From: Amycolatopsis pithecellobii
GTDB taxonomy: Bacteria > Actinomycetota > Actinomycetes > Mycobacteriales > Pseudonocardiaceae
Direction: 5' to 3'
Length of the DNA stretch: 64,000 nucleotides
Assembly (NCBI RefSeq): GCF_009707865.1
Contig: NZ_WMBA01000035.1
Coordinates: forward strand, 1 to 64,000
Shown here: positions 3,811 through 51,196 of the stretch, one piece after another
Layout: every line of letters begins with the position of its first letter
Position numbering within the stretch: the stretch's first letter is position 1
Translations under genes and position numbers: made by a program
The notes under the pieces: generated by a model
What the model was told of the DNA's origin: nothing
Databases searched by the model: none
The model's input: the letters and a program-made list of their open reading frames with translations, nothing else

Positions 3811-4005
3811 CCGTGTCGCCTTCCTGCGTGTGATTCAGGGCAGAAGCCAGGCGGAGGCGAGGGAACCGACAGCAGAGTGGTCACTAACCGGCGCTCAATG
3901 GCGCGTCCCCTTGTCATCGCTTCGCGGTTCCGGGGAAACCGGGGGCGGCAGTGTCATGAGAGCCCTCGAAGGGCGACCAACACAGGCCCTCACCCCGGCT
4001 TCCGC
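3811..4005 (-). other. non-coding flank of IS110 remnants
   Basis: No gene is visible here. The stretch lies immediately upstream of one IS110 transposase remnant and downstream of another. In intact IS110 elements such non-coding ends are known to give rise to the bridge RNA that specifies target and donor. I cannot fold or match it here, so this is position-based inference only. Confidence 0.25.
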
Positions 4006-11161: not shown

Positions 11162-11615
11162 TCAGGAGTCGGCGTTCGTGGCATTCGTGGTGATGCGATC
11201 GAGCATATTCTCAAGGTGATTGATGACGGCCGCCGCAAGACCGTTGCCGAGTTGGCCGTCGAGCTCCGCAACCTTCGCGTCGGCACGCTTGAACACGGCG
11301 CTGTCGAGCCCGTCGGGCAGCGGCAGCTGGAGAAGGATCCCGGAGACGCTTCGGTCCGCCGCGAGCTCGTCGATGACCGCCGCGATCGTGCGTACTCCCG
11401 CACGGCAGGGACCTGTGTTGGTCGACCATGCCGGCTTCGCGCACGGCTCGGCGCTTACTGGCCACATATACACCGCTGGCGGGGTCGTCGCCGACCAGGA
11501 TCGTCGCGAGCCCCGGTTGCGGTGCGCCCGCGGCGACCCGCCGCGCCACGTCCTCCCGGACGCGCTCGCGAACACGCACGGCCAGTGCCTTGCCATCGAT
11601 CCGGATCGTGTTCAT
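11162..11615 (-). pseudogene. folD: folD, truncated and frameshifted
   Basis: The start (MNTIRIDGKALAVRVRERV), then GLATILVGDDPASGVYVASK, matches the N-terminus of FolD (methylene-THF dehydrogenase/methenyl-THF cyclohydrolase), including the YVASK motif whose Lys is catalytic. After REAGMV the frame shifts, and homology continues as VIDELAADRSVSGILLQLPL and PDGLD. Beyond that the sequence no longer resembles FolD, and the NAD(P)-binding domain is missing. The ATG at 11615 overlaps the stop of the LigM-like gene, so this was the last gene of the operon. Its loss removes the step between methylene-THF and formyl-THF, unless a genomic copy supplies it. Confidence 0.85.
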
Positions 11616-13039
11616 TGCGGTGGCTCGGCCTGCGCGGTGAGGGTCGAGCGTTTCAGCTCCTGCGCGAATTTCCCGTACGGTGCGGCGCAGACGGTCGCGC
11701 GGATCGTGGTCTGCACATGGTGTTCCACATGCGGCTTGCGTGAACCCCCATCCGGTTCACCCCAGGTGACGAGCACCTGCGACCCGATCTCGGCGTGGTC
11801 CTCATCGAGGGAACTCACTGACATGAGGTCCCGGTCGTTGATGGTGTAAGCGCAGTACTGCGACATCCCGATCAGTTCGCCGTTCGGCGACCGGACCTCG
11901 TCGGCCTGCGGCCACCCGAAGATCGGAGTCGGCAGCTCGATGCTCTTGTACACCGGACCGTCGTCGAACTGCGATGCGTGGACCTTGACGATGTCGTCCT
12001 TGTGCCGCTTGAGGATTCGCCGCACCCGGCGCGGCACGGACCGGGCGGCCTCGAGTACCTTTCGACCGATGAAGTCGTGGTCGAACTTGACGAACCTGTC
12101 GTAGCCCAGGGCGGACGGGGTCCAGTAGTAGTCCTCGATGTTGTCGCTGCGCAGGCTTCCGCCGAGCTGCATGCGGGCCTCCCAGCTGTCGGCCGGAAGC
12201 CATTCCCGGTACGGCCGGAGCTCTTCGCCGGTGTAGATCCCGGGGAGCGGGTACGGGACCCACCCGCTCACGATCCCACTGCTGAAGTAGGTCTTCGTGC
12301 CGCCTTCGCGAAGGCCGTGCTGCGCACCGGCCTCCAGGATCGCCTGCCGGACGACCTCCAGATCCGCGTAGTCGCCGGAAATCTCGGCGCCGCCGACGCT
12401 GCCCATGCCGTGCCGGAGCACCGTTACGTCCCGGTCGGCCATGCGCACCCGCGCGGTGCGGAAGAACTTCAGCTCCGGCCAGCCGCCGTCGGTGATCTGG
12501 TCGAGAACCGCCTGCGCGGTCGGTCCTTCGAGCTGGAACCGGAACTTCGTCCGTCCGCCTGTCGGGTTGAACGGTGTGGTCGGGTCGAACGTCATCTCGA
12601 CATCGAAATCCCCCGACTCGCCGTGGAAACGCACCCAGTTCAACAACGGCATCCCGCTGACGAGCTCGAACCCGGCTTCCTCGCCGTAGTAGTACAGCAC
12701 GCAGTCGCCGATGTGGTGCCCTCGTGGCGTGCAGGCGAAGTACTGCTTGGCGCGGTCCGTGGCCAGATTCGAGAATGTGCACGGCGAGAGGTACTGGAGC
12801 ATCCGTTTCGCATCGGGGCCGGCGATATACAGGACCGGCATGTGATGGGACTGGTTCAGCAGCAGACAGGTCTCGCGAATGGCCTGTTGCTCGTCGCGCC
12901 AGTTGGTGTATTCCGGCTGAATCAGGTTCTTGGCGGCGAAGAGATCCGTCCGCGACTGGTGAAACTGCGAGACGGTGTCGTGATAGAAGTGGTCGACCAG
13001 GTTCTCGTGGGCGTCGATCAGGTCCTGCAGGCTTTTCAT
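11612..13039 (-). CDS. LigM/GcvT-family tetrahydrofolate-dependent O-demethylase
   Basis: 475 residues from ATG 13039, preceded by AGAGGAATC. The protein has the GcvT (aminomethyltransferase, T-protein) fold, but its length and N-terminal extension (MKSLQDLIDAHENLVDHF) match the LigM/DesA/Dmt branch (about 470 residues). That branch transfers the methyl of a methoxy-aromatic acid (vanillate, syringate, 3-O-methylgallate, dicamba) to tetrahydrofolate. Landmarks include DSWEARMQLGGSLRSDN, the YDRFVKFDHDFIGRKVLEAA segment typical of T-protein C-domains, and ISQY-like GMSQYCAYTIND. The adjacent metF, purU and folD remnant strongly support THF-dependent demethylation over a glycine-cleavage role. 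The particular methoxy substrate is not readable. Confidence 0.85.
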   Translation of the reverse strand: MKSLQDLIDAHENLVDHFYHDTVSQFHQSRTDLFAAKNLIQPEYTNWRDEQQAIRETCLLLNQSHHMPVLYIAGPDAKRMLQYLSPCTFSNLATDRAKQYFACTPRGHHIGDCVLYYYGEEAGFELVSGMPLLNWVRFHGESGDFDVEMTFDPTTPFNPTGGRTKFRFQLEGPTAQAVLDQITDGGWPELKFFRTARVRMADRDVTVLRHGMGSVGGAEISGDYADLEVVRQAILEAGAQHGLREGGTKTYFSSGIVSGWVPYPLPGIYTGEELRPYREWLPADSWEARMQLGGSLRSDNIEDYYWTPSALGYDRFVKFDHDFIGRKVLEAARSVPRRVRRILKRHKDDIVKVHASQFDDGPVYKSIELPTPIFGWPQADEVRSPNGELIGMSQYCAYTINDRDLMSVSSLDEDHAEIGSQVLVTWGEPDGGSRKPHVEHHVQTTIRATVCAAPYGKFAQELKRSTLTAQAEPPQ

Positions 13040-13067
13040 GATTCCTCTTCGCACGAGTCGAGACGGG

Positions 13068-14042
13068 TTACCGGCCGAGAAGGCGGGCCGCAGTGCGACC
13101 CAGAACCAGGTTCTCCTGTTCGGTGGGCAGGTTCGCGTGGCGGACGAAACCGACCGGATCGTTCTCCCCAACCGGGTAGTCGGCGCCCATGACGAGGTGG
13201 TCGGCGCCGAACCGGGAAACGAGCGCTGCCAATACCGCCGGATCGTAGACACAGGTGTCGAAGTAGAGCTGTGCCAGGTACTCGCCGGGGTTCTTGCTGA
13301 GATTGCGCGCGCTGTGCGGCATGTTGTGCACGTTGCGGTCGAGACGCCCGAAGTAGTGCGGCAGGAAGCCGCCGCCGTGGGCGATGACGATCACCAGTTC
13401 CGGCATGGCTTCGAGCAGGCCGTCGTAGATCATGGACGAAAGGGCCTTCGCCTCTTCGATCGGTTGTCCGACCGAGTTCCACAAGGCGTAGTCCTGGAAC
13501 CAGGGATCCGCGATGCCTTCCGGGTGCAGCAGGGCGACGATCCCCAGGTCCCGCACGGCTTCCCAGAACGGGCGCAGCGAGGCATGTCCGAGGTAGCGTC
13601 CCCCGACGTGGGAGGGCACCTGCACGACTCGTGCACCGAGGCCGCGGACACATCGCTCGAGTTCCGGGATCGCCAGTGCGAGGTCCTGCAACGGCACGGT
13701 GCAACTGCCGACGAAACGCTCCGGGTCGCGGTCCACCCAGCCGGCGATCTCGTCGTTGACACAGGCGTTCAAGGCGAGGTCCCGCTCCGGTGGCGCCCAG
13801 CTCGACCCCTGGATCACCGTGGTGGACAGTAGAACCTCGGCGTCCACGCCTGCCTTGTCCATGTCGGGCAAGTGGAGCGCGGGGTCGAGCATGCGCTTGA
13901 AGACCTCGTCGAAGCGGGAGCCGGCCGGCGGTTGCACGGTGCGCGCTCCGAAGCCGGTGTAGACGTTGTGCGCGGCTGTCTCCTCGACCACGTCCGCCAC
14001 GAGGATGTGCGAATGGAAGTCGATGACGGGGTTGCTGTTCAT
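13068..14042 (-). CDS. amidohydrolase_2 family, carboxyvanillate/ACMSD-type decarboxylase-like
   Basis: 324 residues from ATG 14042 (MNSNPVIDFHSHILV). The HxH metal-ligand motif is in DFHSH at the N-terminus. Further ligands are likely in LLHPEGI, IVIAHGGGFLPHYFGRLD and GADYPVGE. This layout is the metal-dependent (de)carboxylase branch that includes ACMSD and 5-carboxyvanillate decarboxylase (LigW). Its place between LigM-like and MetF genes suggests it works on the same aromatic acid or a ring-cleavage product. Start overlaps the metF stop (ATGA), and a 28-bp gap separates it from the demethylase gene. Hydrolysis of a lactone (LigI-like) is an alternative. Confidence 0.8.
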   Translation of the reverse strand: MNSNPVIDFHSHILVADVVEETAAHNVYTGFGARTVQPPAGSRFDEVFKRMLDPALHLPDMDKAGVDAEVLLSTTVIQGSSWAPPERDLALNACVNDEIAGWVDRDPERFVGSCTVPLQDLALAIPELERCVRGLGARVVQVPSHVGGRYLGHASLRPFWEAVRDLGIVALLHPEGIADPWFQDYALWNSVGQPIEEAKALSSMIYDGLLEAMPELVIVIAHGGGFLPHYFGRLDRNVHNMPHSARNLSKNPGEYLAQLYFDTCVYDPAVLAALVSRFGADHLVMGADYPVGENDPVGFVRHANLPTEQENLVLGRTAARLLGR

Positions 14043-14881
14043 TGCCCCTCCGATGCTTCGTCGTCGAACACGGCACCGAGTTCGCTTTTCTCCAGCCGGA
14101 TCGTCTGGGCGAGCCGGTTGAACGTGTACCAATGCAGGCCGGCGAGACCGAGGGCCGGATCGCCGAGCCACGGCGCGATGGCCCGGTGCAGCCGATGAGC
14201 TGCCTGCAGCGGACTGCTCAACAGTCTTCGTAGCCCCTTTTGTTTGCGCAGGAAGGAGATCGAGGGGCCGACCCCGACCCGCATCGAGATCTCGAGCAGG
14301 CGTTTGCGGTCGACCGCGCCCGGGACGCCGGCGAACAAGGGTACGGAGATCCCCGATGTCCGCAGCTCGGAAATCCAGGCCAGGAGATGGTTCGGGTCGA
14401 AACAGATTTGCGTGACGGCGTAGTCCGCCAGCTTCGCCTTCTCGGCCAGGGCGTGGCGCAGTGTGGGAGGACTGATCAGGGGGTGGCCCTCCGGATACGC
14501 CCCGATTCCGAGACGCGCGGGCCGACGGCGGTGGTCGTTCAGCATTTCGAGAACCGGCAGCGCAGAGTCGTAGGGGCCCGCAGGCTCGGTGACGTCGCCG
14601 CCGATCACGAAGACGTCCCGGATACCGGCTTCGCCCATCTGCTCGGCCAGCTCATCGAGATGTCCGGGCCCGAGCACCTGCCGCGCCGCGAGGTGCACCA
14701 CGGCGTCGTGTCCGTGCGCGGCCAGCCGGGCAGCGATCTCGACGGTCCGGTCGATGCCGTGGCGTGGCGAGCAGGTGACCGTGATCGTGACCGGTTCCGC
14801 GAGTTCGAGCGCCGCAGCGGTGGCGCCGCCGAACGGGAGGATCTCGAACCGAGACGCGCGCGGCGCGAACCTGGCGTCCAT
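14039..14881 (-). CDS. metF: MetF-like methylenetetrahydrofolate reductase
   Basis: 280 residues, slightly shorter than housekeeping MetF. It would oxidise methyl-THF (product of the demethylase) to methylene-THF, or work in reverse. The TIM-barrel signature is recognisable: EPVTITVTCSPRHGIDRTVE at the N-terminus, DAVVHLAARQVLGPGHLDEL, DVFVIGGDVTEPAGPYD (flavin site region), LADYAVTQICFDPNHLLAWI (the 'TQ..FD' motif) and VGVGPSISFLRKQKG. The ATG at 14881 overlaps the purU stop by one base (TGATG). The longer open frame upstream is a shadow of purU. Relatives linked to LigM-type demethylases show the same divergent N-terminus; that comparison is from general knowledge. Confidence 0.85.
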   Translation of the reverse strand: MDARFAPRASRFEILPFGGATAAALELAEPVTITVTCSPRHGIDRTVEIAARLAAHGHDAVVHLAARQVLGPGHLDELAEQMGEAGIRDVFVIGGDVTEPAGPYDSALPVLEMLNDHRRRPARLGIGAYPEGHPLISPPTLRHALAEKAKLADYAVTQICFDPNHLLAWISELRTSGISVPLFAGVPGAVDRKRLLEISMRVGVGPSISFLRKQKGLRRLLSSPLQAAHRLHRAIAPWLGDPALGLAGLHWYTFNRLAQTIRLEKSELGAVFDDEASEGQ

Positions 14882-15789
14882 CAGAACACCACCGTCGTGT
14901 TGCCGTGCAGGAGAACCCGATCCTCGCAGTGCCAGCGCACCGCGCGCTGAAGGACGCTGCGTTCGACATCCGCGCCCGCGCGCACCAGATCGCGCGTCGT
15001 CGCCCGATGGCTGACGCGGGTGACGTCCTGTTCGATGATCGGCCCCTCGTCGAGGTCGGCCGTTGCGTAGTGCGCAGTCGCGCCGATCAGTTTCACGCCG
15101 CGTTCCTTCGCTCGCTCGTACGGACCCGCGCCGGCGAAGGCCGGGAGAAACGAATGGTGGATGTTGATCACCGGGCAGCCCACGCGCCGGAGGAAATCGT
15201 CGGAGAGAATCTGCATGTAGCGGGCCAGGATGACGAGGTCGTACCGGCCGCCGCCGAGCACGTCGAGCTGAGCCGATTCCGATGTCGCCTTCGTCGCGCG
15301 TGTCACCGGAATCTCGTGGTACGGCACGCCGAATCGGGTCACCTCGTCGCGCAGATCGCCCCAGTTGCTGACTACGGCGCCGATTTCCATCGGCAGCTCG
15401 CCGCGCGACGTGCGCCACAGCAGGTCGAGCAGGCAGTGGTCGTAACGCGAGACCATGATCGCGACCCGTTTGGGCCTTGCGGCGTCGTGGAACTCGAAGT
15501 CCGACCCGAACCGTTGCGCCACTTCGACGGCGAACTGCTCGCTCAGCTCGTCCAGCCGCGCCGACACGCCCGGAAGGTGGAAGACCACGCGGAGAAAGAA
15601 CGATCCGCTTTCCGGGTTGGTGGAGTACTGATCCGACTGGACGATGTTCGCGCCGCGCTCGACGAGGAACCGCGAAACCCCGGCGACGATGCCGGGCCGG
15701 TCGGCGCATGACACGAGCAGGCGCGCGGTGTCCGTGACACCGCTGCTCGACTCCTGCGCCCTGAGGGCGGAGAGCACCGCGCCGGTCAT
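14881..15789 (-). CDS. purU: formyltetrahydrofolate deformylase
   Basis: 302 residues from ATG 15789 with GGAGGGCGAC upstream. It hydrolyses 10-formyl-THF to formate and THF, so recycling the cofactor for the demethylase. An N-terminal ACT domain (about residues 15-95, LLVSCADRPGIVAGVSRFLV) is followed by the formyltransferase-fold catalytic domain (VAIMVSRYDHCLLDLLWR, VINIHHSFLPAFAGAGPYE with the catalytic His, and HYATADLDEGPIIEQDV with the catalytic Asp). All key residues are present. A 31-bp gap separates it from BKACE upstream, and it overlaps metF downstream. Confidence 0.93.
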   Translation of the reverse strand: MTGAVLSALRAQESSSGVTDTARLLVSCADRPGIVAGVSRFLVERGANIVQSDQYSTNPESGSFFLRVVFHLPGVSARLDELSEQFAVEVAQRFGSDFEFHDAARPKRVAIMVSRYDHCLLDLLWRTSRGELPMEIGAVVSNWGDLRDEVTRFGVPYHEIPVTRATKATSESAQLDVLGGGRYDLVILARYMQILSDDFLRRVGCPVINIHHSFLPAFAGAGPYERAKERGVKLIGATAHYATADLDEGPIIEQDVTRVSHRATTRDLVRAGADVERSVLQRAVRWHCEDRVLLHGNTTVVF

Positions 15790-15820
15790 GTCGCCCTCCG
15801 GCCAGGTTCCATTGTGGACC

Positions 15821-16696
15821 TCATGTCGTTTTCTCCGTTTTCCTGTCCGGAATTCCCAGAATTTCCCGGGCCTGGTCCGGGGTGGCGATCTCGCGCTGCA
15901 GGAGACCCGCGAAAGCCGCTGCCCGCTCGACCAGCTGCGCGTTGTCACGCAGGAGTTCGCCGCGCGCCCAGAACACGTTGTCCTCCATCCCGACGCGCAC
16001 GTTGCAACCCATCGCCATCGCAATGGTGGTGATCGGCAGTTGCGTGCGGCCCATGGACGACACGTTGATCCGGATGTCGCGTGGATCGGCAGGCAGATCG
16101 TGGCAGCGGGACACCATGTCCTGCAGGTTGGCGGGAGTGCCGCGCATGCCACCCTGCGTCGGCGTGTTGAGCACGAGGTTCACGACGTAGGGCGGGGTCA
16201 GGATGCCTTGCTCGATGAGATGAGCGACCTCCTCGAGCATCGCGCTGTTGTAGACCTCCAGCTCGGGCCGGATGCCGCGTTCGGCCATCTCGGTGGCGAA
16301 CCAGGTGATGTCGGACCGGTGGTTGGGGAAGAACACCTGCTCGCCGCGGATGAAGAAGTTGAGCAGGCCCATGTTGAGTGAGCACATCTCCGGGCCGAGC
16401 TTGACGGGCTGGATCCGTTCGGCGACGGGAAGCAGCGGACTTCCTCCCGTCGTCAGCTGCAGCACCGCGTCGGTCTCCGCGCGCAGGCGGTCGTGCACCT
16501 CGCGGAAGATCTCGACGTCCATCGTGTTCGTCCCGTCGGGATTGCGCACGTGGATGTGCAGGATCGCCGCGCCGGCAGCAGCCGCCGCGACGCCGTGGCG
16601 AACGATCTCGTCCGGCTGCTCGGGCAGGTTGGGGTTGGCCTCCTTCCCGTGGATTCCGCCGGTCAGCGCGCAGGTGATGATCACTGGTGGGTTCAT
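15821..16696 (-). CDS. BKACE (beta-keto acid cleavage enzyme, DUF849)
   Basis: 291 residues, ATG 16696 overlapping the stop of the FAD monooxygenase. The family condenses a beta-keto acid with acetyl-CoA to give acetoacetate and a new CoA ester; the founding member is Kce of lysine fermentation. Visible landmarks: the Zn-ligand HxH in AAILHIHVRNPDG (about residue 45), LQLTTGG, the EVYNSAMLEEV segment carrying an active-site Glu, and NVRVGMEDNVFWARGELLRD. Full length with no lesions. In this operon it may release a CoA ester from a beta-keto acid formed after ring opening. The exact substrate is unknown. Confidence 0.88.
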   Translation of the reverse strand: MNPPVIITCALTGGIHGKEANPNLPEQPDEIVRHGVAAAAAGAAILHIHVRNPDGTNTMDVEIFREVHDRLRAETDAVLQLTTGGSPLLPVAERIQPVKLGPEMCSLNMGLLNFFIRGEQVFFPNHRSDITWFATEMAERGIRPELEVYNSAMLEEVAHLIEQGILTPPYVVNLVLNTPTQGGMRGTPANLQDMVSRCHDLPADPRDIRINVSSMGRTQLPITTIAMAMGCNVRVGMEDNVFWARGELLRDNAQLVERAAAFAGLLQREIATPDQAREILGIPDRKTEKTT

Positions 16697-18270
16697 CCGA
16701 GGCCTCCCGTGACGGTGGTCATGCGTAGTTGCGCCGCGAGGTCGTCCACCAGCCGCGGCAGTCCGGCCTGCGTGGTCGCGGCACCGAAGATGTAGAAGTC
16801 CGGGCGCGCGATCGTCACCTCGACAGCGCGTTCCTTGGCGTAGGTCCGGTAGGTGCCGTCGACATCGCGGGCGTCGGCGCCCACATCGGACCCGATGTGG
16901 GCGAACACGGTGCCGAGCCGCTCCAACAACGCCAGCTGCGCAGCGTCCAGCTCAGCGCGGGGGTCGCCGGCCGTGCTGACGACCTGCCACCGCCCGGCCG
17001 CGTCGAAGGCCCGGTCGAACAACTCCGTGCGGCCGTCCCGCTCGACGCGCGCCTGCAGCGACAGCTCGCCGGCGGGCGCGATGGGAGCGCCTCCCGGGTC
17101 GCGGTGGATGAGGCCGTGCCGAATCTGCGGGAAGTCCGGCATCGGCGGTAGCCAGCCTGCGCGGAACCGGGCGTCGCGCTCGCGTGCCTCGTCAGGATCC
17201 GTCGTGCACGGGACTTTCCCGGATTCCAGGGAGATCGTCGTCCAGTCGCGCACGTAGGGACGCAGCTCGGTTTCGAAGGTGTCCAGCAACCCGTCGGGAG
17301 CGAGGCCCCGCAACACGAGGTCGAGCTTCCAGCCAAGGTTCTTCGCGTCGCGCATCCCGGAGCACATGCCCTGCCCCATGAACGGCGGCATGGTGTGGGC
17401 GGCGTCGCCGATGAGAAAGGCGCGGCCGCGGCGGAAGGCACGCGCCGTGCGGGCCTCGAAGGTGTAGACGATCTGGCGGACGATCTCGATGTCGTCCGGT
17501 CCCACACCGAGTTCACCCAGCAGCCGCCACGCCATGTCCGGCTTCTCGAACTCGCCGGTCACCTCACCCGGCAGCAGCGCCCATTCCCAGCGGCGGTGGC
17601 GTTTGCCGAGCGGCAGGATCGTCACCGGGCGGCGCGGATCGCAGATCTGGCCGCAGTCGAAGTCGAATCGCAGTTCGCGCTTTTTGCGAGCGTCGACGTC
17701 GAGCCACCGCTCGTTGAACCCGAGGTCCTCGCGTTCGATGCCCAGCGCCTTGCGGACGAAACTCCCCGCACCGTCCGCACCCACGAGATACCGTCCGCGC
17801 AGCACTCGCACTTCGTCGTCGCCGTCGCGACGGGCGGTCACCGCGACGTGGTCCTCGTGCTCGACGAGCCCGACGGCCTCCCACCCCTGCAGCAGGGCCA
17901 GGGCGGGATCGGCCCGTACACGATCCGCGAGGGCGGCCTCCAGCACGGGCTGGTACTGCATGTAGTGCGAGTGATAGCCGGAGAGGCCCGCCGAACCCCA
18001 GTCGAACTCGAGCAACGTCTCGCCCGTCGCGTTCACCCACCGGTACTCGACGGTCGGGTACGAGTCGGCCAGCAACGGTCCTTCGGCGTCGAGTGATTGG
18101 AGAATGCGCACGATCTCGTGATCGACGTGACCCGCGCGGGGCAGCCCGTAGAACTGGGGGTGCCGTTCGATCGCGGTGACTCTGTGCCCGCGCTGACCGA
18201 GCACCGCGGCCATCGTCAAACCGACCGGACCGAGCCCGACCAGGATCACATCCTCGATGCCGTCGCTCAT
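16693..18270 (-). CDS. FAD-dependent aromatic hydroxylase (MhpA-like)
   Basis: 525 residues from ATG 18270. Group A flavoprotein monooxygenase: dinucleotide motif GLGPVGLT near residue 12, the 'DG' motif in LVGADGAGSFVRKALGIERE near 170, and the FAD ribityl-binding GDAAHTMPPFMGQG followed by RDAKNLGWKLDLVLRG near 285-310. The C-terminal thioredoxin-like domain (to residue 525) is typical of the PheA/MhpA branch, which ortho-hydroxylates phenols such as 3-hydroxyphenylpropionate or resorcinol. It would supply the catechol for the extradiol dioxygenase upstream. Overlaps both neighbours by ATGA. Confidence 0.9.
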   Translation of the reverse strand: MSDGIEDVILVGLGPVGLTMAAVLGQRGHRVTAIERHPQFYGLPRAGHVDHEIVRILQSLDAEGPLLADSYPTVEYRWVNATGETLLEFDWGSAGLSGYHSHYMQYQPVLEAALADRVRADPALALLQGWEAVGLVEHEDHVAVTARRDGDDEVRVLRGRYLVGADGAGSFVRKALGIEREDLGFNERWLDVDARKKRELRFDFDCGQICDPRRPVTILPLGKRHRRWEWALLPGEVTGEFEKPDMAWRLLGELGVGPDDIEIVRQIVYTFEARTARAFRRGRAFLIGDAAHTMPPFMGQGMCSGMRDAKNLGWKLDLVLRGLAPDGLLDTFETELRPYVRDWTTISLESGKVPCTTDPDEARERDARFRAGWLPPMPDFPQIRHGLIHRDPGGAPIAPAGELSLQARVERDGRTELFDRAFDAAGRWQVVSTAGDPRAELDAAQLALLERLGTVFAHIGSDVGADARDVDGTYRTYAKERAVEVTIARPDFYIFGAATTQAGLPRLVDDLAAQLRMTTVTGGLG

Positions 18271-18971
18271 GACCGGCTCCACCCCGAGTCCAGCCGTCGG
18301 CGCAGCAGGTCGACGGCCGCCGACCACACCCGCTCGGTGTCCTCCTCCGGACGCTGATACGGACCACCGCCGGGGCCGTCCTCGAGGAGCGCACGGACGC
18401 CTGCCGGATCGGCCTCACGGAGGGCGCCCGCATCGACCAACGGTTTCCGCCCCGCGGGAATCGACACGCCGGGCAGCCGTACGAGCGGGAAGTTCTCCAC
18501 CCACGAGGCGTGACTGACCTCGTCGATTCCCTTGGCCAACTCCCAGATCTCCGAGGCAATGAGCCACCCGTGGAACTGGACGTCGCAGTCCGGGTGTTCC
18601 GCCGCCCAGGCTTGGGCCTCGGCCTCGGCCGGTGCGTTGCCGCCGTGCCCGTTGACGAGCAGGATCCGACGGAACCCTTGGTTACGCAGGCTGTCGAGAA
18701 TGTCGCGTACCAGGGCGAGGAACGTCGACTCGCGGAGGTCGATCGCGCCGGGGAACGCCGTGAATGTGGGGGTGGGGCCGAAGGGCACCGTGGGCAGCAC
18801 CGGCACCCCCGCGGGCTCTGCCGCCTCCAACGCCGCCGCCTCGCACAGGATCGCGTCGACGCCGACCGAGAGGTAACCGTGTTGTTCGGTCGAGCCGAGC
18901 GGAACAAGCACACGGTCGTCCGTTTCCAGATAGGTCTCCAACTTCATCCAGTTGTAATCCCAGAATTTCAT
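18267..18971 (-). CDS. creatininase-family hydrolase
   Basis: 234 residues, ATG 18971 (MKFWDYNWMKLETYLE). Creatininase-fold metal hydrolases (creatinine amidohydrolase, ArfB, MftE, inosose hydrolases) share the motifs seen here: VPLGSTEQHGYLSVGVDAIL (metal-binding Glu/His and Asp), FTAFPGAIDLRESTF, ILLVNGHGGN (the family signature) and ASWVENFPLVRLP near the C-terminal metal ligand. It should hydrolyse a cyclic amide, lactone or amide, possibly a ring-cleavage product or lactam. Coupled to the amidohydrolase upstream and the FAD hydroxylase downstream by 4-bp overlaps. It is not a clear MftE, because no other mycofactocin biosynthesis gene is nearby. Confidence 0.85.
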   Translation of the reverse strand: MKFWDYNWMKLETYLETDDRVLVPLGSTEQHGYLSVGVDAILCEAAALEAAEPAGVPVLPTVPFGPTPTFTAFPGAIDLRESTFLALVRDILDSLRNQGFRRILLVNGHGGNAPAEAEAQAWAAEHPDCDVQFHGWLIASEIWELAKGIDEVSHASWVENFPLVRLPGVSIPAGRKPLVDAGALREADPAGVRALLEDGPGGGPYQRPEEDTERVWSAAVDLLRRRLDSGWSRS

Positions 18972-19828
18972 TGTTCGACCTCCGTGAGTCGGGGGGACGA
19001 AAGCGATTCCATCGAACCGTCGGTCCAGGCGAAAACGGTGCGGGCGCTGCGCCCGAGAACCCATTGCTTGTTGTCGTCGGACAGCGCCGGGTTGTCGTGG
19101 ACGAAGCCGAGCAGTTCGGCCCAGTCGACGCCGGAATCCTCCATCGTGATGTCGCTCGCCCACATCACGCGTTCCGCGCCGAAGGCTTCGACCGCACGCA
19201 GGAATTCGCGCTGCATGCGTGCACCATCGTGGCCGAACACGCGATGCGGATGGCACCATTTCAGGTAGACACCGGGAAACGTGGCGGCGCCGAGGACTGA
19301 CTCCCAGTCCTCAGGCCCGCGGGCCCCACCGCAGTGATCGAGGACGATGCGAAGCCCAGGAAAGCGCTCCTTCGTCGACCGCAGCACCTGTGGGTCCGCT
19401 CCGAACAGACACAACGGCATCGATCGTCCCTGTGCTACAGCGAGAACTCCGTCGTAGTCCCCTTTGGTGAACTGCCGCCGGTCCTCAGCGGTGAACAGCA
19501 TCACCCGGACTGCGCGGCAGCCCGGGTGGTCCGCAAGCAGCGCGGCGACGGATTGTCGGCGCGGGTCGGCCATTTCGACGCGCTGCAGGAAACGGAACCG
19601 GTCGGGGTTGCGCACCACGGCCGCTTGCACGTACGGACTCAACGGCCGGAATGCGCCGCCCGGCAGCGGCACGCACGGCATGAATTGCGCCGTGTCGGTG
19701 CGGTACCAGAACTCGTCGAGGACCGCGCCGCGAATCCCGAGCCGGTCCATCGAGGCCAGCAGGCGGTGCTCGTCCATCTCGAGGGTGAGGTGAAGTTGGG
19801 CGTCGACGATGTCGGTCGGCGTGGTCAT
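18968..19828 (-). CDS. amidohydrolase_2 family protein, PDC-hydrolase-like
   Basis: 286 residues, ATG 19828 overlapping the aldo/keto-reductase stop. TIM-barrel amidohydrolase: N-terminal IVDAQLHLTLEMDEHRLLAS (the HxH is changed to QLHL, which retains only one His), RIVLDHCGGARGPEDWESVL (metal/substrate His) and VMWASDITMEDSGVDWAELL (catalytic Asp). This is the layout of the branch containing 2-pyrone-4,6-dicarboxylate lactonase and other metal-light members. Hydrolysis of a lactone formed from the ring-cleavage product is plausible. Substrate unknown. Confidence 0.8.
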   Translation of the reverse strand: MTTPTDIVDAQLHLTLEMDEHRLLASMDRLGIRGAVLDEFWYRTDTAQFMPCVPLPGGAFRPLSPYVQAAVVRNPDRFRFLQRVEMADPRRQSVAALLADHPGCRAVRVMLFTAEDRRQFTKGDYDGVLAVAQGRSMPLCLFGADPQVLRSTKERFPGLRIVLDHCGGARGPEDWESVLGAATFPGVYLKWCHPHRVFGHDGARMQREFLRAVEAFGAERVMWASDITMEDSGVDWAELLGFVHDNPALSDDNKQWVLGRSARTVFAWTDGSMESLSSPRLTEVEQ

Positions 19829-20826
19829 GCGCGAACCGGGGCAGGAGCGACGGTGTGGCCGACGACCGGATGCGCCTGGTACGCCTCCTCGAGGAGGGCG
19901 ATTTCCTCAGCGCTCAGGTCGAGTTGCTCGGCGGCCAGCGAATCGTGCAGGTGCCCGGGTTTCGTGGCGCCGACGATCGGCGCGGTGACGCCAGGCCGGT
20001 GCAGCAGCCAGGCAAGCGCCACCTGCGCCGGCGGTACGGCCCGCTGGTCTGCCGCCGCGTTGAGCCGGTCGATCACCGGCCGGTCGAGTTCGAGCCGGTA
20101 GAACTCGTCGGCGACGGTGTCGGAACGGGCACGGGCGGAGCTGTCGCGGGCCCCGGCGAGCAGGCCGCGGGCAAGCGGGCTGAACGGAAGCACGCCGACC
20201 CCCATGTCGAGGCATTGGGGGATCATTTCCCGTTCCTCCTCCCGGTAGATGAGGTTGTAATGGTTCTGCATCGAGATCATCCGGGTTCGCGCCACCGACT
20301 GCGCTTTCGCAAACTGCCAGGCGAACAGGTTGCTTGCCCCGAGGTAGCGCGCCTTACCGGCCCGCACCACGTCGTGCAGTGCCTCCATCGTTTCCTCGAT
20401 CGGGGTGTCGGGATCCCACCGGTGAATCTGATAGAGATCGACGTAGTCGGTGCCCAGGCGCGTCAGTGACGCGTCGATCGCCGCCATGATGTGCTTGCGT
20501 GAGAGACCCCACCCGTTTTCGCCGGGCATGCTCGGCATCCGCACCTTCGTGGCGAGGACGTACTCCTCCCGCATGGCGAAGAACTTCCGCAGGAGCCGTC
20601 CGGTCACGATTTCGCTCTGGCCACCGTTGTAGACATCGGCGGTGTCGAAGAAGGTGATCCCGCCGTCCACCGCGGACCGGACGATCGGTTCCGCTTCCCG
20701 CTCGTCAAGGGTCCATGGCCAGCGATCGACGGTCCAGGACTGGCCGACGTTCCTGCCGTAGCTCAACATTCCGAGGCAGATCCGGGAAACCCGGAGGCCG
20801 GAACCACCGATCTTCACGTACTCCAT
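19825..20826 (-). CDS. aldo/keto reductase
   Basis: 333 residues, ATG 20826 behind AGGAG. NADPH-dependent carbonyl reductase fold with the catalytic tetrad visible: Asp and Tyr in FFDTADVYNGGQSE (about residues 55-60), Lys in YVLATKVRMP and His in DLYQIHRWDPDTP. The C-terminal cofactor loop (VTAPIVGATKPGHLHDSLAA) is also typical. It probably reduces or oxidises an aldehyde or keto intermediate of the pathway. 27 bp downstream of the MFS gene and overlapping the amidohydrolase. Confidence 0.9.
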   Translation of the reverse strand: MEYVKIGGSGLRVSRICLGMLSYGRNVGQSWTVDRWPWTLDEREAEPIVRSAVDGGITFFDTADVYNGGQSEIVTGRLLRKFFAMREEYVLATKVRMPSMPGENGWGLSRKHIMAAIDASLTRLGTDYVDLYQIHRWDPDTPIEETMEALHDVVRAGKARYLGASNLFAWQFAKAQSVARTRMISMQNHYNLIYREEEREMIPQCLDMGVGVLPFSPLARGLLAGARDSSARARSDTVADEFYRLELDRPVIDRLNAAADQRAVPPAQVALAWLLHRPGVTAPIVGATKPGHLHDSLAAEQLDLSAEEIALLEEAYQAHPVVGHTVAPAPVRA

Positions 20827-20853
20827 GGACGGCTCCTGTTTCAGTCGGCACGG

Positions 20854-22212
20854 TCATTGGCCAGACGCGGGTGCCGCGGCCTGATCTGCCGTCTCTGCCG
20901 GACGTGGATGCCGCAACGCGGCCACCGCAGCGCGGGCGGCAGGTGTAAGAGGCAGCGCCGTCGCCAGCACAGCGGCCGCCGCGGACACGGCCCCGAGGAT
21001 GTAGAACGAGGTGACCGCCCCGCCGTGCCTGGCCAGCAATGCGCCGAACACGAGCGGACCGACGATCGCGCCGACGCGACCGATGGCCAGCGCCCAACCG
21101 AGGCCGCTGCCGCGCGACGTGACCGGATACAGCGAGGCCGCGAGGGTGTTCAGCAGCATCTGGGCGCCGAGCGTGCCGACCCCGGCCAAGGCGATCAGCA
21201 GGAACGCCGCCCAGCCCGGAGGCCGCAGCGGCACCAGGACCAGCCCGACCGTCCCCACCGCGAACAGAACCGTGACCGAGGTCTTCGGACCGCGACGGTC
21301 GGCATGGCGAGCGCCGGCCAGCGCACCGATGCCGGCGCCGAGGTTGAGCACGAGCGAGAAGGTCAACGCTGCTCCCAGCGAATACCCGACCGCCTTCATC
21401 ATCGCGGGCAACCAGGTCACGATGCCGAAGACCAGGAAGTAGCCGCAGATTTCGACGAGCCACAGCACGAACGTGGACACCAGGTAGTGCCGTGCGAAGG
21501 CGCCGCGCCACGAGCCGGCCGTGCCCGAAGCCGACTTCGCAGGCTCGTCACGCAGGCCGAGGACAATCCCGAACCTGTCGGCGATGGCGCGTGCGTCCGC
21601 GATCCGCCCCCGAGCGTTCAGCCAGGTCGGTGACTCGGGCAGGTAACGCAGCATCACGGGCAGCAGGAGCAGGGGCAGCGCCCCGATCCCGAACATGACC
21701 CGCCAGCCGGCCGACCGGATGAGCAGAATGCCAAGACCGGCGGCGACGATTCCGCCGATCAGATAACCGAAGAAGGCCAACGAGTAGGTTAGGGCTTGCT
21801 TGCCGGGCCTCGCGAACTCGACGATCAGGGCGATCGCCGACGGAAACAGCGCGCCGAGGCCGACGCCGCCGAGGGCGCGGGCGATCTCGAACTGACCGGC
21901 CCCCGGGACCAGGGCGCAGGCCACCATCGACACCGAGAACAGCACCATGCTGACAAGGATGATCGCCCGTCGGCCGACCCGGTCGGCCAGCGGTCCCGAG
22001 ACCAGTGCGCCGACGCCCATTCCGGTCGTGGTAAGCGATGCGATACGGCCGATGTCCACGGAGGACAGTCCCCACCCGGGCTCGGCGAGCAGAGACGGCA
22101 CGACGTTTCCGTAGACCACGAGGTCGTACCCGTCGAAAAAAATGAGGAGTCCACAAAGGACTATGATCAGCGAGCTAGCCGAGCGTGCACCGCGCGTCAT
22201 TGCTACGGTCAT
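20854..22212 (-). CDS. MFS transporter, aromatic acid:H+ symporter type
   Basis: 452 residues, ATG 22212 behind GGAAGGAG. Twelve hydrophobic segments are apparent. TM1 carries LLIFFDGYDLVVYGNVVP, the 'DGYD' signature of the AAHS family (PcaK, BenK, MhpT), whose Asp is needed for aromatic-acid uptake. The loop 2-3 MFS motif is present (GPLADRVGRR), as is the middle-loop RYLPESPTWL. It should import the aromatic substrate of the operon. Located between the extradiol dioxygenase and the aldo/keto reductase. Confidence 0.92.
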   Translation of the reverse strand: MTVAMTRGARSASSLIIVLCGLLIFFDGYDLVVYGNVVPSLLAEPGWGLSSVDIGRIASLTTTGMGVGALVSGPLADRVGRRAIILVSMVLFSVSMVACALVPGAGQFEIARALGGVGLGALFPSAIALIVEFARPGKQALTYSLAFFGYLIGGIVAAGLGILLIRSAGWRVMFGIGALPLLLLPVMLRYLPESPTWLNARGRIADARAIADRFGIVLGLRDEPAKSASGTAGSWRGAFARHYLVSTFVLWLVEICGYFLVFGIVTWLPAMMKAVGYSLGAALTFSLVLNLGAGIGALAGARHADRRGPKTSVTVLFAVGTVGLVLVPLRPPGWAAFLLIALAGVGTLGAQMLLNTLAASLYPVTSRGSGLGWALAIGRVGAIVGPLVFGALLARHGGAVTSFYILGAVSAAAAVLATALPLTPAARAAVAALRHPRPAETADQAAAPASGQ

Positions 22213-22282
22213 CACGGCTCCTTCCAATCGGTGAAGGATTGCGGGCCCTTTGTGGGTCCGCGGGAAAGACGAACGACGTGGC

Positions 22283-23215
22283 TCATGCCCCGTCGTGGGA
22301 ATCGGCCATCAGGTCGGCGAGGTCTTCGGGCGCGAGGAACGACGGTGGTGGCGGCGGGCCCCATGCGTACAGACTCTTCTCGCCGGCGACCACTGCGGGC
22401 TCCCATAGCTGGTCGTCGAGAATGCAGTCGATGTCGGAGTAGTACTCGGAGAAGTTGCCTGCCGGATCGCGCAGGTACCAAAAGAAGTTCGAGCCGATGT
22501 AGTGCCTGCCCAGGCCCCAGGTGTGCCGTTCCGGATGCCCTTCGAGCATGGCGGTCGCTCCCCTGCCGATCTCGTCGACGTCGTCGACCTCCCACGACGT
22601 GTGGTGCAGGAAGCTCACCGGAGCCTGTTGCACGAGGACGTTGTGGTGTTCGGTCGAGCACCGAAGGAAGGACGCGAGGCCGGGGGCCTCGTCGCTGACC
22701 TTGAAGCCCAGTCCCTGGGTGAAGAATCGTTGCGTCGCGGCCTGATCGACGGAGCCGAAGACGACGTGGCCGAGTTTGCGCGGCCGCACCCGATCCTGCC
22801 GCTCGATCGCCGGTGCCCGGCGGTTGGGGCGAACCAGGTTTCCCGGTGAGTTGACGGGCTCCGCGTGAGTCACTTCCTGTCGCAACCGCGGGGCCACCGA
22901 AACGGTCACCACCAGACCGGTCACCGGGTCGGCGGTCCGTAGGGTGTCGCGCTCGCGGCGGCAGGAGACCTCGAGACCGCCCAGCGAGGCGGCGATCCGG
23001 GCGAGGTCGTCCGCGTCATCGACGCCGATCCCCAGCGAGAGCAGCCGGCGTCGGGGATGGGGCCGGAGCCGCAACTGCTCGCCCCCGTCAGCGGTGGCGA
23101 ATCTGTGCTCAGCGCCGCGGGCGGTCGGGCGAAGCCCGAACTCCGTGTAGTAGGCGGCAGTCTCCTCGACGTTCGGCACGCCGATGGTGACGTCCGTAAG
23201 GCTGTGCAGAGCCAT
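22283..23215 (-). CDS. two-domain VOC extradiol ring-cleavage dioxygenase
   Basis: 310 residues, ATG 23215. Two vicinal-oxygen-chelate domains (about 1-110 and 145-270). The Fe(II) ligands of type I extradiol enzymes are visible in the C-terminal domain: His in RKLGHVVFGS, His in VSFLHHTSWEVDD and Glu in GNFSEYYSDIDC. This fits cleavage of a catechol-type ring next to the hydroxyls, with the catechol supplied by the FAD hydroxylase or by O-demethylation. The C-terminal 30 residues are proline-rich (GPPPPPSF). In the present DNA it is the first intact gene of the operon, just downstream of an IS110 insertion, so its promoter may be disturbed. Confidence 0.88.
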   Translation of the reverse strand: MALHSLTDVTIGVPNVEETAAYYTEFGLRPTARGAEHRFATADGGEQLRLRPHPRRRLLSLGIGVDDADDLARIAASLGGLEVSCRRERDTLRTADPVTGLVVTVSVAPRLRQEVTHAEPVNSPGNLVRPNRRAPAIERQDRVRPRKLGHVVFGSVDQAATQRFFTQGLGFKVSDEAPGLASFLRCSTEHHNVLVQQAPVSFLHHTSWEVDDVDEIGRGATAMLEGHPERHTWGLGRHYIGSNFFWYLRDPAGNFSEYYSDIDCILDDQLWEPAVVAGEKSLYAWGPPPPPSFLAPEDLADLMADSHDGA

Positions 23216-23388
23216 CAGTCGTCCCTAAGGTTGATGTTGTTCGGGGTTGGTGCCCCGGATGCCCAGGGCGATGGGGTGTGGCTGATCAGTGGTTGCCGCA
23301 CGGTGGCTCGAGGAGAATGGCCGCCCCGTCGTTCCGGACGCCCTGGCTGAATTAGATCTCATGCGGGCCGTCGCTGTTCAGGGACCTG

Positions 23389-24393
23389 TTGGCGGGGTTG
23401 TCCACGGGGTTGACCTGCGACAACAGGAGAACGAGCGGGACGGATCGACCGCTGGGGTGGGTCGGTATCGACGTCGGCAAGGCCACCCATCACGCGTGCG
23501 TGATGGACCCGGCCGGCACAGTGGTGTTCTCGCAGAAACTCGCCAACGACCAGGCCGCGATCGAGCAGCAGGTGGTCTATGTGCCCGGCCGGGTCGTCAA
23601 CCGGATGACCGGGGTGTTCCGTGGTGAGGCGAAGTCCGACGCCAAAGACGCCCGGGTGATCGCCGAAACCGCCCGCATGCGCACCGACCTCACCCCGGTC
23701 ACCGCCACCGACGACCTCGTCGTCGAGCTGACCCGGCTGACCGCGCACCGCGAGGACCTGATGGCCGACTGGGTGCGTGGGGTCAACCGGTTGCGCGAGA
23801 TGTTGACCGGGATCTTCCCCGCGCTGGAACGCGCCTTCGACTACTCCACCCGCAGCGCTCTCATACTGGTCACCGGTTTCCAGACACCACAAGCGATCCG
23901 CGACGCCGGAAAGTCCGGTGTGGACACTTATCTGCCTGAACACGGCGCCTGGGCCAAGGGCATCCCACGCATGGCCGCCGACGCGCTGGCCACCGCTGGG
24001 GCTCAGACACTGCGACTGCCTGGCGAGCAGACCACCGCCGCGCTGATCGCCCGCCTGGCCCAGCAGCTGCTCGATCTGGACCGGCAGACCAAGGACACCG
24101 ACAAGCTGATCACCAGCCGGTTCCGGGAACACCCGCAGGCCGAGATCATCGAGTCGCTGCCCGGTCTCGGACCGATCCTGGGGGCGGAATTCCTGGTGGC
24201 CACCGGCGGTGACCTCGCTGCTTTCGCCACCTCCGGTCGACTGGCCTCCTACGCCGGGCTGGCGCCCGTGCCGCAGGACTCCGGCCGGGTCACCGGCAAC
24301 CTGCGCCGGCCGAAACGCTACAACCGCAGGCTGCTGCGCGACCGCCGGAAGTTCACACCGACCGCGCCACAACCCGCTACCGCAGCGGCTTGA
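23389..24393 (+). pseudogene. IS110-family transposase with internal deletions
   Basis: Reads in frame for about 334 codons, but comparison with the family shows losses. The N-terminus is good (WVGIDVGKATHHACVMDPAG, first catalytic Asp). It then jumps from NDQAAIEQQ directly to VVYVPGRVVNRMTGVFRGE, omitting the strand that normally carries the catalytic Glu. The KSDAKDARVIAETARM segment (Asp pair) and the C-terminal ESLPGLGPILGAEFLVATGG domain are present. The C-terminus switches abruptly from RYNRRLLR to DRRKFTPTAP, lacking the last domain. It is therefore likely inactive. It is inserted on the opposite strand between the FAH-like gene and the dioxygenase of the main operon. The true start is uncertain. 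Confidence 0.8.
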
Positions 24394-24398
24394 CACGA

Positions 24399-25016
24399 TC
24401 ATGCAGATTCTCCTTGCTGTGCCGCGACCAGCCGGTGGCGCATCTCGCCGATCCCTTCGATCCGGCTCACCAGCTCGTCCCCTGGGGTCAGAAACCGTTG
24501 TGGACTCCGGGCGATGAGTTCGGGAACCGGGAAGACGAGTTCCGCGGTGCGTCCTGTTTGGACGGTCTCGCCGTTGACGGTGCAGCCCAGTTCGAGGTCG
24601 TTCCGGTCCGGCAGTGCGTCAGGCGTCACCAGCCACGGGCCGGTGGGGCCGTCCCAGTCCACGGAGTCCCCGCTCAGGACGACCTCGCCGAACGGCCCCG
24701 TCAGCGACGTGGCGAACTTGGTGAAGACCGCCGGGGACTCCGGCAGGTCGAGGCTGGCCTCCGCCGCGTGATTCTTGTAGTTGAGGCCGACCGCGAAAAG
24801 TTGCGTGGGAGCGGGAGCGGGTGGGCGGAGATCGGCCTCGTTGTAGTTGGCGGCGCCAGCTGTCGGCGCATCCGTCGCCCAGCCGGCGAACTCGTCCCAG
24901 CGCGCGTAGATGGCCTGCGAGTCGGAACCGAAGCGCTTGTCGCTCGCCTCCTCGACGCCGACCGCTCGGGAACCAGTCAGCAGAACAAGACGGCCGGCGA
25001 GATCGGCTATTCGCAT
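24399..25016 (-). pseudogene. FAH-family hydrolase/isomerase with two in-frame deletions
   Basis: 205 residues in an open frame from ATG 25016 (AAAGG upstream), against about 280 for the family. Two blocks are missing. VVLSGDSVDW joins directly to DGPTGPWLVTPD, losing the segment with the ExE metal ligands and the following 'DxSxR' region. FPVPELIARS joins PQRFLTPGDELV, losing the 'LxPGDLIxTGTPxGVG' loop. The remaining parts (LFAVGLNYKNHAAEA, CTVNGETVQ) are well kept. Without metal ligands it cannot catalyse fumarylpyruvate- or oxalocatechol-type hydrolysis. It would have been the first gene of the operon, divergent from GntR. Confidence 0.8.
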
Positions 25017-25114
25017 GAGGGGACCTTTCGAGTGGAGTGCCGTCGATCGAACATCCTCGGCGGCACCGACTACCTAAGAGCGAACTGACGAAACAATCTC
25101 AGACCAATATTCGC

Positions 25115-25126
25115 TAGTCAATACTA
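25115..25126. promoter_or_regulatory. possible GntR operator in divergent promoter region
   Basis: TAGTCAATACTA is a short hyphenated palindrome in an AT-rich patch (25095-25140) between the divergent FAH-like and GntR starts. It resembles the T-N-GT...AC-N-A half-site style of FadR/FCD-type GntR operators, though the spacer is one base longer than usual. It would control both genes. Weak evidence. Confidence 0.35.
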
Positions 25127-25165
25127 AAAAATTTTCTTTGCCGGAGAGTGTGCTATCGTCGGCCT

Positions 25166-25873
25166 ATGGCGAAGCGAGGGGGCGGCGAAAGCCTTGGTGT
25201 GCTCGTGTACGAGCGGTTACGTTCAGCGATCCTGAACGGAAGTGAGCTTCTGCCTGGGCAGCGGCTCAAACCCGCCGAAATCGGGGCACGCTACGACGTA
25301 AGTGTGAGCGTCGTCAGGGAGGCGCTCGGCATCCTTGCTGCCAAGGGTCTGGTGCGTATCGACCGTAACCGCGGCTTTCATGTGGTGCCGTTGTCGCTGG
25401 ATGTGCTCGAGCAGCTGACCGAAGCCCGGTTGGTGACCGAGGGAGGCGCGCTCCGGCTCTCGGTCGAGCGGGGCGATGTGGCCTGGGAGTCCGCGGTCCT
25501 GGCCGCTCATCACCGACTTGCCAGCGAGCCGATCTTCCACGACGGCGATCCGCCGGTGCGCAACGAGGACTGGGCTCGCGCGCATCTGGACTTCCACCGC
25601 ACGCTGATCGAAGGGTGCGACAACGCGGTCCTGCTCGATCTGGCGCTGCGATTGTCTGACACAGCCGAGCTCTACCGCGCTTGGGCGGCGGCCGGCGGCC
25701 GCGAGACGGACCGCGACGTCGAAGGCGAACACCGGGCACTGCTCGACGCGGCGCTGGCCCACGACGCCGACAAGGCGGTCAAGCTCTTCGACGACCACAT
25801 CACCCGCACATGCCAGATCCTGACTGATTACGCGTCCACATTCGGCCTTGCCGACCGCAAGGCCGAGGACTGA
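25166..25873 (+). CDS. GntR-family regulator (FCD subgroup)
   Basis: 235 residues from ATG 25166 (MAKRGGGESLGVLVYERLR); a GTG at 25148 is possible. The winged helix occupies about residues 10-75 (PAEIGARYDVSVSVVREALG). The C-terminal all-helical FCD domain is recognisable by ARAHLDFHRTLIEGCDN, EGEHRALLDAALAHDADKAV and the FDDHITRTCQ metal/ligand-binding His. Such regulators commonly sense organic acids and repress catabolic operons. It is divergent from the long minus-strand operon and is its likely repressor. Confidence 0.9.
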   Translation: MAKRGGGESLGVLVYERLRSAILNGSELLPGQRLKPAEIGARYDVSVSVVREALGILAAKGLVRIDRNRGFHVVPLSLDVLEQLTEARLVTEGGALRLSVERGDVAWESAVLAAHHRLASEPIFHDGDPPVRNEDWARAHLDFHRTLIEGCDNAVLLDLALRLSDTAELYRAWAAAGGRETDRDVEGEHRALLDAALAHDADKAVKLFDDHITRTCQILTDYASTFGLADRKAED

Positions 25874-50168: not shown

Positions 50169-50246
50169 GGTCGCGACCCTACGGATGAGCAGAGCCGACT
50201 GGAATCAGCTGTCGCCGATGACGATCATCGATGCCGTCGATGTTGG

Positions 50247-51173: not shown

Positions 51174-51196
51174 GCGCGCATCCTGCCAGAACACCG

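Follow-up and report, generated by a model that had tools for sequence, protein, structure and literature searches.

A third-clade LigM/DesA-superfamily enzyme in a predicted, partly decayed tetrahydrofolate-dependent O-demethylation and ring-cleavage operon of Amycolatopsis pithecellobii

A run of twelve minus-strand genes, reading from 23215 to 11162 in a 64,000-nucleotide stretch of Amycolatopsis pithecellobii contig NZ_WMBA01000035.1 (hereafter the window), appears to specify the tetrahydrofolate (THF)-dependent demethylation of a methoxylated aromatic compound together with the cleavage of its ring, a reading drawn from sequence comparison to which we assign roughly two chances in three. 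Its key gene (11612..13039) encodes a 475-residue predicted O-demethylase of the LigM/DesA superfamily that belongs to a third clade. Adjacent genes of the run, a FolD remnant included, overlap by 1-4 bases at seven of the eleven junctions and are separated by 27-70 bases at the other four, and because the junctions are this tight, the run is likely to be carried on a single transcript. The initial annotation had placed on this strand a LigM/GcvT-type gene, MetF, PurU, the FolD remnant, an AAHS-type transporter, a flavin adenine dinucleotide (FAD)-dependent hydroxylase and an extradiol dioxygenase. All of them are present, and the proposed combination of LigM-type demethylation, with MetF and PurU alongside, with a hydroxylase and an extradiol dioxygenase is supported by the sequence. 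Additional members of the run are a beta-keto acid cleavage enzyme (BKACE), a creatininase-like protein, two amidohydrolases and an aldo/keto reductase, and upstream lie a decayed FAA-hydrolase (FAAH) gene, an IS110 element and a divergent GntR gene.

The 475-residue protein matches the LigM crystal sequences of the PDB with 362 bits, in an alignment spanning residues 26-461, and the best aminomethyltransferase with 41.5 bits. Among NCBIfam models, it scores 463 bits with DesA (NF047633, cut-off 800), 420 bits with LigM (NF047885, cut-off 580) and at most 55 bits with GcvT models (TIGR00528, 37.7 bits, cut-off 235.9), none of these cut-offs being reached. Its identity is 43-44% to the sphingomonad DesA-equivalog rows of our alignment and 26% to the GcvT of its own genome. 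With a full-length similarity of 362-463 bits to LigM and DesA against 41-55 bits to GcvT, the protein is, by sequence, a member of the LigM/DesA superfamily, yet neither a LigM nor a DesA equivalog. The PDB and NCBIfam scores rule out a GcvT or other aminomethyltransferase identity, and the grouping with GcvT that the initial annotation had named as grounds for abandoning its proposal is not what they indicate. Ten relatives were also scored with the NCBIfam models. Both cut-offs are exceeded by L036, L040, L045, L086 and the actinomycete L030, which score higher with DesA than with LigM; the second Nocardia gene (L018:11580) passes the LigM cut-off only (693 against 580); and L008, L018:10001, L020 and the copy on contig C132 of the same genome, which group with the window protein, stay under both.

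A maximum-likelihood tree of 61 rows, rooted on the GcvT of the same genome and built without L045 (a DesA equivalog) and L010 (a stop in its match), places the window demethylase in a third clade of 23 rows with support of 95/92. Within it, the window row sits in a ten-row clade (100/100), where it is joined by nine proteobacterial rows, of which eight bear Alphaproteobacteria names and one is titled Proteobacteria only. Topologies forcing the window row together with the LigM rows (p-AU 1e-48), the DesA rows (p-AU 3e-6) or the 11 rows of its clade that come from actinomycetes (p-AU 1e-5) were all rejected, in tests weakened by the choice of groups with the tree already in view. By tree and topology tests, the protein thus groups neither with LigM of Sphingobium SYK-6 nor with the DesA-equivalog rows.

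In LigM numbering, for which we inferred an offset of four from the 5tl4 chain, the window demethylase retains Q57, H60, E215, Y247 and W256. In the LigM structures, Tyr247 is catalytic and Arg122 binds the vanillate carboxylate; His60 and Tyr247 are conserved in the superfamily. The tree rows that serve as LigM and DesA references have Arg at position 122; in the third clade this position is Gly in 19 rows, the window protein among them, and Ser in the other 4. Further positions distinguish the clade as well: Ser at 121 and Trp at 282 in all 23 rows, Tyr at 259 in 20, and Ala (14 rows) or Pro (7 rows) at position 31, where the alignment carries an insertion. The 80 rows used for comparison were picked for R122, so that their 80/80 holds by construction; the comparison does not include the outgroup row or 19 other rows. 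Loss of R122 marks the third clade, though it is not unique to it, and on sequence grounds it should be taken as a pointer to the substrate, not as proof. A methyl-transferring tyrosine and aromatic-binding residues are likewise adopted from LigM in PMC9296663. A separate LigM-type group has His122 and mostly adjoins MetF and PurU; it comprises L092, L093, L095, L098, L108 and L113-L117 of the same genus and L002 of the same genome.

Gene neighbourhoods of other third-clade members bear on the substrate. In Rhizobium NZLR1 and Mesorhizobium amorphae, the clade gene has maleylacetate reductase and a putative intradiol dioxygenase within 10 kb, relatives of both lie within 10 kb of the Geodermatophilus gene (L021), and the pair is absent from the annotated stretch around the clade gene of Agrobacterium fabrum. 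Such neighbours point to a hydroxyquinol-type route around other members of the clade, which would also fit a non-carboxylated demethylase substrate. We tentatively favor a non-carboxylated methoxyphenol, at somewhat less than an even chance; such a methoxyphenol, or an acid decarboxylated beforehand, seems somewhat more likely as substrate than vanillate or syringate. The proposal of the initial annotation that a methoxylated aromatic acid is demethylated is accordingly weakened by Gly or Ser at position 122 in 23/23 clade rows and by the maleylacetate reductase and intradiol-type dioxygenase genes beside three members.

It is nevertheless conceivable, if rather unlikely, that the substrate of the enzyme is a methoxylated acid of the benzoate type (vanillate, syringate, methylgallate or a dicamba-like compound) whose carboxylate is read by another residue. 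The AAHS-type transporter of the run would agree with an acid, as would the third-clade gene of Nocardia arthritidis lying directly beside a LigM-equivalog gene, and the amidohydrolases show weak likeness to enzymes of the gallate and protocatechuate pathways (59 bits, by profile, with a putative 2-pyrone-4,6-dicarboxylate hydrolase, 63 bits with 4-oxalomesaconate hydratase). In the same direction, Dmt06, cloned from a consortium and 100% identical to an Actinomadura protein, is described in PMC9404685 as a dicamba demethylase without activity on vanillate and syringate. Against an acid stand the loss of R122 along with the other changes throughout the clade, the scores of the window protein under both equivalog cut-offs, and the run itself, in which Pfam and NCBIfam scans recognised neither a LigAB-type dioxygenase nor LigC or LigK.

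A demethylenase that opens a methylenedioxy ring to give methylene-THF is far less probable. In its favor, actinomycetes do have GcvT-like enzymes that depend on THF, namely BrdA of Rhodococcus and Arthrobacter and SesA of Sinomonas (PMC5547118). By its published identities, however, BrdA of strain BD7100 is 26.7% identical to LigM/DesA and 44-50% to GcvT proteins (PMC5547118), in contrast to the window protein with its 43-44% to DesA-equivalog rows and 26% to GcvT, and the neighbouring MetF suits methyl-THF better.

The genes that would recycle the cofactor adjoin the demethylase gene, separated from it on one side by an amidohydrolase gene. The MetF-type 5,10-methylene-THF reductase (14039..14881) is divergent and of a kind seen near LigM-type genes: it passes the Pfam MTHFR cut-off (51 bits against 24) and falls short of that of NCBIfam TIGR00676 (61.8 against 293.7). 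PurU, a formyl-THF deformylase of 302 residues (14881..15789), passes TIGR00655 (374 bits against 286). The FolD remnant (11162..11615) retains in domain scans only part of the N-terminal catalytic domain, split over two frames, and no match to the NAD-binding domain was found on the contig of the window. Elsewhere in the genome, four open frames of roughly 300 residues give FolD matches above the cut-off, one of them on C132 next to a second third-clade gene in a MetF-PurU-LigM-FolD cassette. Full-length FolD genes also adjoin other members of the clade. The idea that the operon holds the whole THF cycle is consequently sustained for MetF and PurU, which are open beside the LigM-type gene, and fails for FolD, which is broken.

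Such packaging had been thought uncommon in actinomycetes, a view that our counts weaken. From 80 LigM-type loci picked by likeness to the window protein, 48 are of at least 18 kb and 11 of those are actinomycete; with bit-score limits of 60, 100 and 120 for MetF, PurU and FolD, the flanks of these 11 contain MetF in 9, PurU in 7, FolD in 6, MetF with PurU in 7 and all three in 5. Within the genus, 14/19 genomes have LigM-type matches that reach 250 bits or more, and MetF and PurU lie within the short LigM-type loci examined in 10/19. Published accounts also mention DesA-like genes in Solirubrobacterales, Thermoleophilaceae and Rubrobacter (PMC9296663), while Rhodococcus ruber R1 is reported to lack such genes for vanillate (PMC9867520).

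The leading gene of the run (22283..23215) encodes a Type I extradiol dioxygenase-like VOC protein whose best named extradiol model, catechol 2,3-dioxygenase, gives 64.6 bits, below its cut-off of 320.2. The protein is 60-68% identical to six actinomycete relatives, and H150, H204, H205 and E257 are invariant in all seven sequences; H150, H204 or H205, and E257 are candidate metal ligands, in the 2-His-1-Glu pattern of the second VOC domain. The FAD-dependent ring hydroxylase (16693..18270) belongs to the MhpA subfamily (514 bits against a cut-off of 390) and has relatives adjoining VOC and FAAH genes. An AAHS-type MFS transporter (20854..22212) scores 272 bits with TIGR00895, under its cut-off of 418.6, and is followed by an aldo/keto reductase (19825..20826), identified by domain scan. 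Plasmids of Rhodococcus koreensis, R. qingshengii, Streptomyces and Pseudonocardia carry VOC relatives with FAAH and acetoacetate-coenzyme A (CoA) ligase nearby, the first three with the FAD hydroxylase as well (3/4), and Rhodococcus USK13 has a related hydroxylase beside FAAH and a distant VOC gene. VOC and FAAH genes are joined by two LigM-type genes and FolD in Streptomyces L024, which also has MetF and PurU, and in Pseudonocardia L025, which also has a CoA ligase. The association of VOC and FAAH with LigM-type genes thus recurs in Streptomyces, Pseudonocardia and contig C85 of the same genome, so that a THF cycle combined with ring cleavage is not as uncommon as had been supposed. A protocatechuate/gallate 4,5-cleavage route was rejected for the run because the Pfam and NCBIfam scans recognised no LigAB, LigC or LigK function there.

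Four further VOC genes of this kind, 60-66% identical, are present in the genome (C72:55170, C91:57017, C85:13194 and C55:32032), with full-length FAAH beside those on C72, C91 and C55. Each of the five paralogs, that of the window included, has a FAAH gene within about 4 kb, and two of these FAAH genes are broken. The C85 locus (L168, 5746-15996) contains GntR, broken FAAH, VOC, a 288-residue protein, FAD hydroxylase, two LigM-type genes, PurU and MetF; its LigM-type proteins have Pro and Thr at position 122.

Upstream of the run, the window keeps the plan of the related clusters, in which GntR diverges from FAAH and VOC follows. The GntR/FCD regulator gene (25148..25873) and an IS110-family transposase copy (23389..24393), which sits between the FAAH remnant and the VOC gene, are on the plus strand, and the decayed FAAH gene (24399..25016) is on the minus strand, lacking two internal blocks common to four full copies. 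We discarded the notion of a conserved short FAAH form, since the other short copy, on C85, has lost different parts. A FAAH query finds 54 matching stretches in the genome, several being fragments of a single gene; nine approach full length (48-63% identity), eight without a stop in the match and one with a stop. Because full-length FolD and FAAH copies exist elsewhere in the genome, both losses may be covered in trans. These same copies, together with the tight packing of the eleven run genes that are still open reading frames, argue against the operon being a decaying relic whose pathway no longer runs. We hold that account to be improbable, even though the FolD and FAAH remnants, the IS110 copy and the likewise broken FAAH of the second LigM-VOC operon on C85 would be in line with it. 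Another catabolic set, with FAAH, LysR, FAD hydroxylase and VOC genes, lies at 49221-53512 of the window.

In the middle block of the run, BKACE (15821..16696) matches PF05853 with 317 bits (cut-off 24.8) and stays below the four listed NCBIfam equivalog or exception cut-offs. The creatininase-family protein (18267..18971) bears a weak likeness to creatininase, MftE and IolN (53 bits with IolN, cut-off 245). Two Amidohydrolase-2 proteins weakly resemble LigI and LigJ. For the LigI-like one (18968..19828), a single-sequence PDB search returned designed proteins only; the more informative profile search gave a putative 2-pyrone-4,6-dicarboxylate hydrolase as nearest solved relative, at 59 bits. 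The other (13068..14042) scores 145 bits with ACMSD, 86 with 5-carboxyvanillate decarboxylase and 63 with 4-oxalomesaconate hydratase, and is a probable decarboxylase or hydrolase. The LigI-like gene is found at E<=1e-55 in 1/397 genomes of the order, namely its own, and the creatininase gene in 2/396 genomes of the phylum, its own included.

A route can be proposed from these assignments. The AAHS-type transporter would import the phenolic substrate, and the third-clade LigM-like enzyme would transfer its aryl-O-methyl group to THF; MetF would oxidise the 5-methyl-THF, a FolD encoded elsewhere in the genome would make formyl-THF, and PurU would release formate and THF. The MhpA-like enzyme would then add a ring hydroxyl, next to which the VOC dioxygenase would open the ring. 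FAAH relatives of this kind hydrolyse acylpyruvates, and the acylpyruvate-type product could be split by FAAH from another locus or by the LigI-like or creatininase-like protein, the resulting beta-keto acid passing with acetyl-CoA to BKACE. Alternatively, an imported acid could lose its carboxylate before demethylation, a step for which the ACMSD-like protein is a candidate; a pyrone form could be the substrate of the LigI-like amidohydrolase, with the creatininase-like protein as a possible further hydrolase.

In the orcinol route, hydroxylation and subsequent extradiol opening of a 5-substituted resorcinol lead to a 2,4,6-triketo acid, whose hydrolysis would give pyruvate and a beta-keto acid, the latter being acetoacetate for a methyl substituent. 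Formation of acetoacetate would explain the acetoacetate-CoA ligase of the related clusters, and a larger substituent would explain BKACE here. In this regard, the presence of BKACE in the run suggests a beta-keto-acid intermediate, perhaps derived from a 5-substituted resorcinol ether, although such an ether as the actual substrate remains a doubtful proposition. Slightly more doubtful again is the full scheme, in which the third clade would consist of THF-dependent O-demethylases for non-carboxylated methoxyphenols and the operon would degrade O-methylated 5-substituted resorcinols, with BKACE yielding acyl-CoA and acetoacetate. If true, BKACE would mark non-methyl substituents and the acetoacetate-CoA ligase clusters would handle the methyl case.

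Several observations weigh against these proposals. Outside the third clade, 26 of the 37 ingroup rows keep R122 and 11 do not; in its place these carry His (6), Gly, Ala, Pro or Thr, and they include the second copy in each of L024 and L025 as well as both C85 genes. The carboxylate role of Arg122 is carried over from LigM and, with the limits used, positive charges are gained only at LigM positions 311 and 434, which leaves an alternative anion site possible. A 47% relative on a Bosea plasmid lies near a gene annotated as 4-hydroxybenzoate 3-monooxygenase, and Methylocella has a broken relative (43%) in the vicinity of pca genes; both fall outside the tree, and their contexts would suit an acid substrate. 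BKACE, the creatininase gene and the LigI-like gene occur in none of the 48 LigM-type loci, and therefore the tie of this block to the demethylase rests on one operon; moreover, the four VOC-cluster plasmids all have acetoacetate-CoA ligase and none has an annotated BKACE. Finally, a search of 23000-25300 for sites resembling promoters or terminators found none, and the broken FolD and FAAH genes and the IS110 copy that precedes the first intact gene may affect expression and flux.

The origin of the run appears to be composite. For the demethylase, the closest relative found is alphaproteobacterial (67%), and no match outside its own genome was found at E<=1e-130 among 200 genomes of the family or at E<=1e-125 among 394 of the class. 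Both limits admit the window gene and the C132 copy, and E<=1e-130 narrowly excludes the third-clade member of a same-genus genome, G007 (45%, E 1.2e-129). Because the nearest relatives found are alphaproteobacterial, the comparison suggests horizontal acquisition as the simplest reading. Relatives at 53-54% occur on plasmids of plant-associated Rhizobium, Agrobacterium and Mesorhizobium (L133, L134 and L135), each with an ABC transporter, an FAD oxidoreductase and a MarR gene, and two of the three with hydroxyquinol-pathway-like genes. The best matches found for other genes fall in different groups: VOC is closest to actinomycetes (66%), the hydroxylase to a Rhizobium plasmid (56%), and the LigI-like protein to plasmid pAKD34 (47%) and a plasmid of Cupriavidus (45%), while plasmid matches to the BKACE and ACMSD-like proteins are all under 60%. 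PurU shares 47-59% identity with its counterparts in actinomycete loci, against 43-50% with those in proteobacterial ones. The two nearest LigI-like plasmid relatives lie in regions without a LigM-, VOC-, BKACE- or creatininase-like match, and the Sagittula creatininase relative is found among GntR, 2-dehydropantoate reductase and asparaginase-like genes. None of the 25 plasmid records with a match holds most of 7000-30000. Transfer of the whole operon from one source is not supported, given the different groups that provide the best matches per gene; the operon would rather be a mosaic, partly of horizontal origin and partly decayed. A TrwC relaxase match in a 257-residue open reading frame (28984-29757) and a second IS110-type transposase match (2550-3917), hint at a plasmid or integrative-element origin of the region.

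Aryl-O-demethylation has been termed a key bottleneck for lignin bioconversion (PMC6021390), and THF-dependent enzymes of this kind use vanillate, syringate, 3-O-methylgallate, dicamba and methylenedioxy rings (PMC9404685, PMC8091115, PMC5547118). By its description in PMC9404685, the THF-dependent aryl-O-demethylation of the dicamba demethylases Dmt, Dmt50 and Dmt06 resembles the reaction predicted here. The operon looks less unusual in its packaging than the initial annotation held, more unusual in its demethylase clade and BKACE block, and partly decayed. A clade lacking the Arg that binds the carboxylate in LigM would be a place to seek demethylases of guaiacol-like or resorcinol-like ethers, and BKACE gives a checkable prediction for the downstream chemistry.

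Compared with LigM, the vanillate/3-O-methylgallate O-demethylase of Sphingobium SYK-6, the window protein shares the five retained residues over a near-full-length alignment and differs in a separate clade position and in R122 to Gly, S259 to Tyr, Y282 to Trp and probably Y31 to Ala. DesA, the syringate O-demethylase, provides its best NCBIfam model, yet the score is well under the cut-off and the DesA rows of the tree keep R122. The actinomycete plasmid clusters of FAAH, VOC, FAD hydroxylase and acetoacetate-CoA ligase share with the window a VOC protein of 59-66% identity and, in two of them, GntR divergent from FAAH; in the window, however, BKACE replaces acetoacetate-CoA ligase, LigM, MetF and PurU are added, and FAAH is broken. 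The MetF-PurU-LigM-FolD cassettes of C132, Amycolatopsis L020 and Streptomyces L027 likewise keep the four functions contiguous, whereas here the order differs, the ACMSD-like gene is inserted and FolD is broken. Together, these comparisons indicate that sets of LigM, MetF and PurU are known and not rare, and that the unusual part of this operon is a separate demethylase clade combined with a BKACE block.

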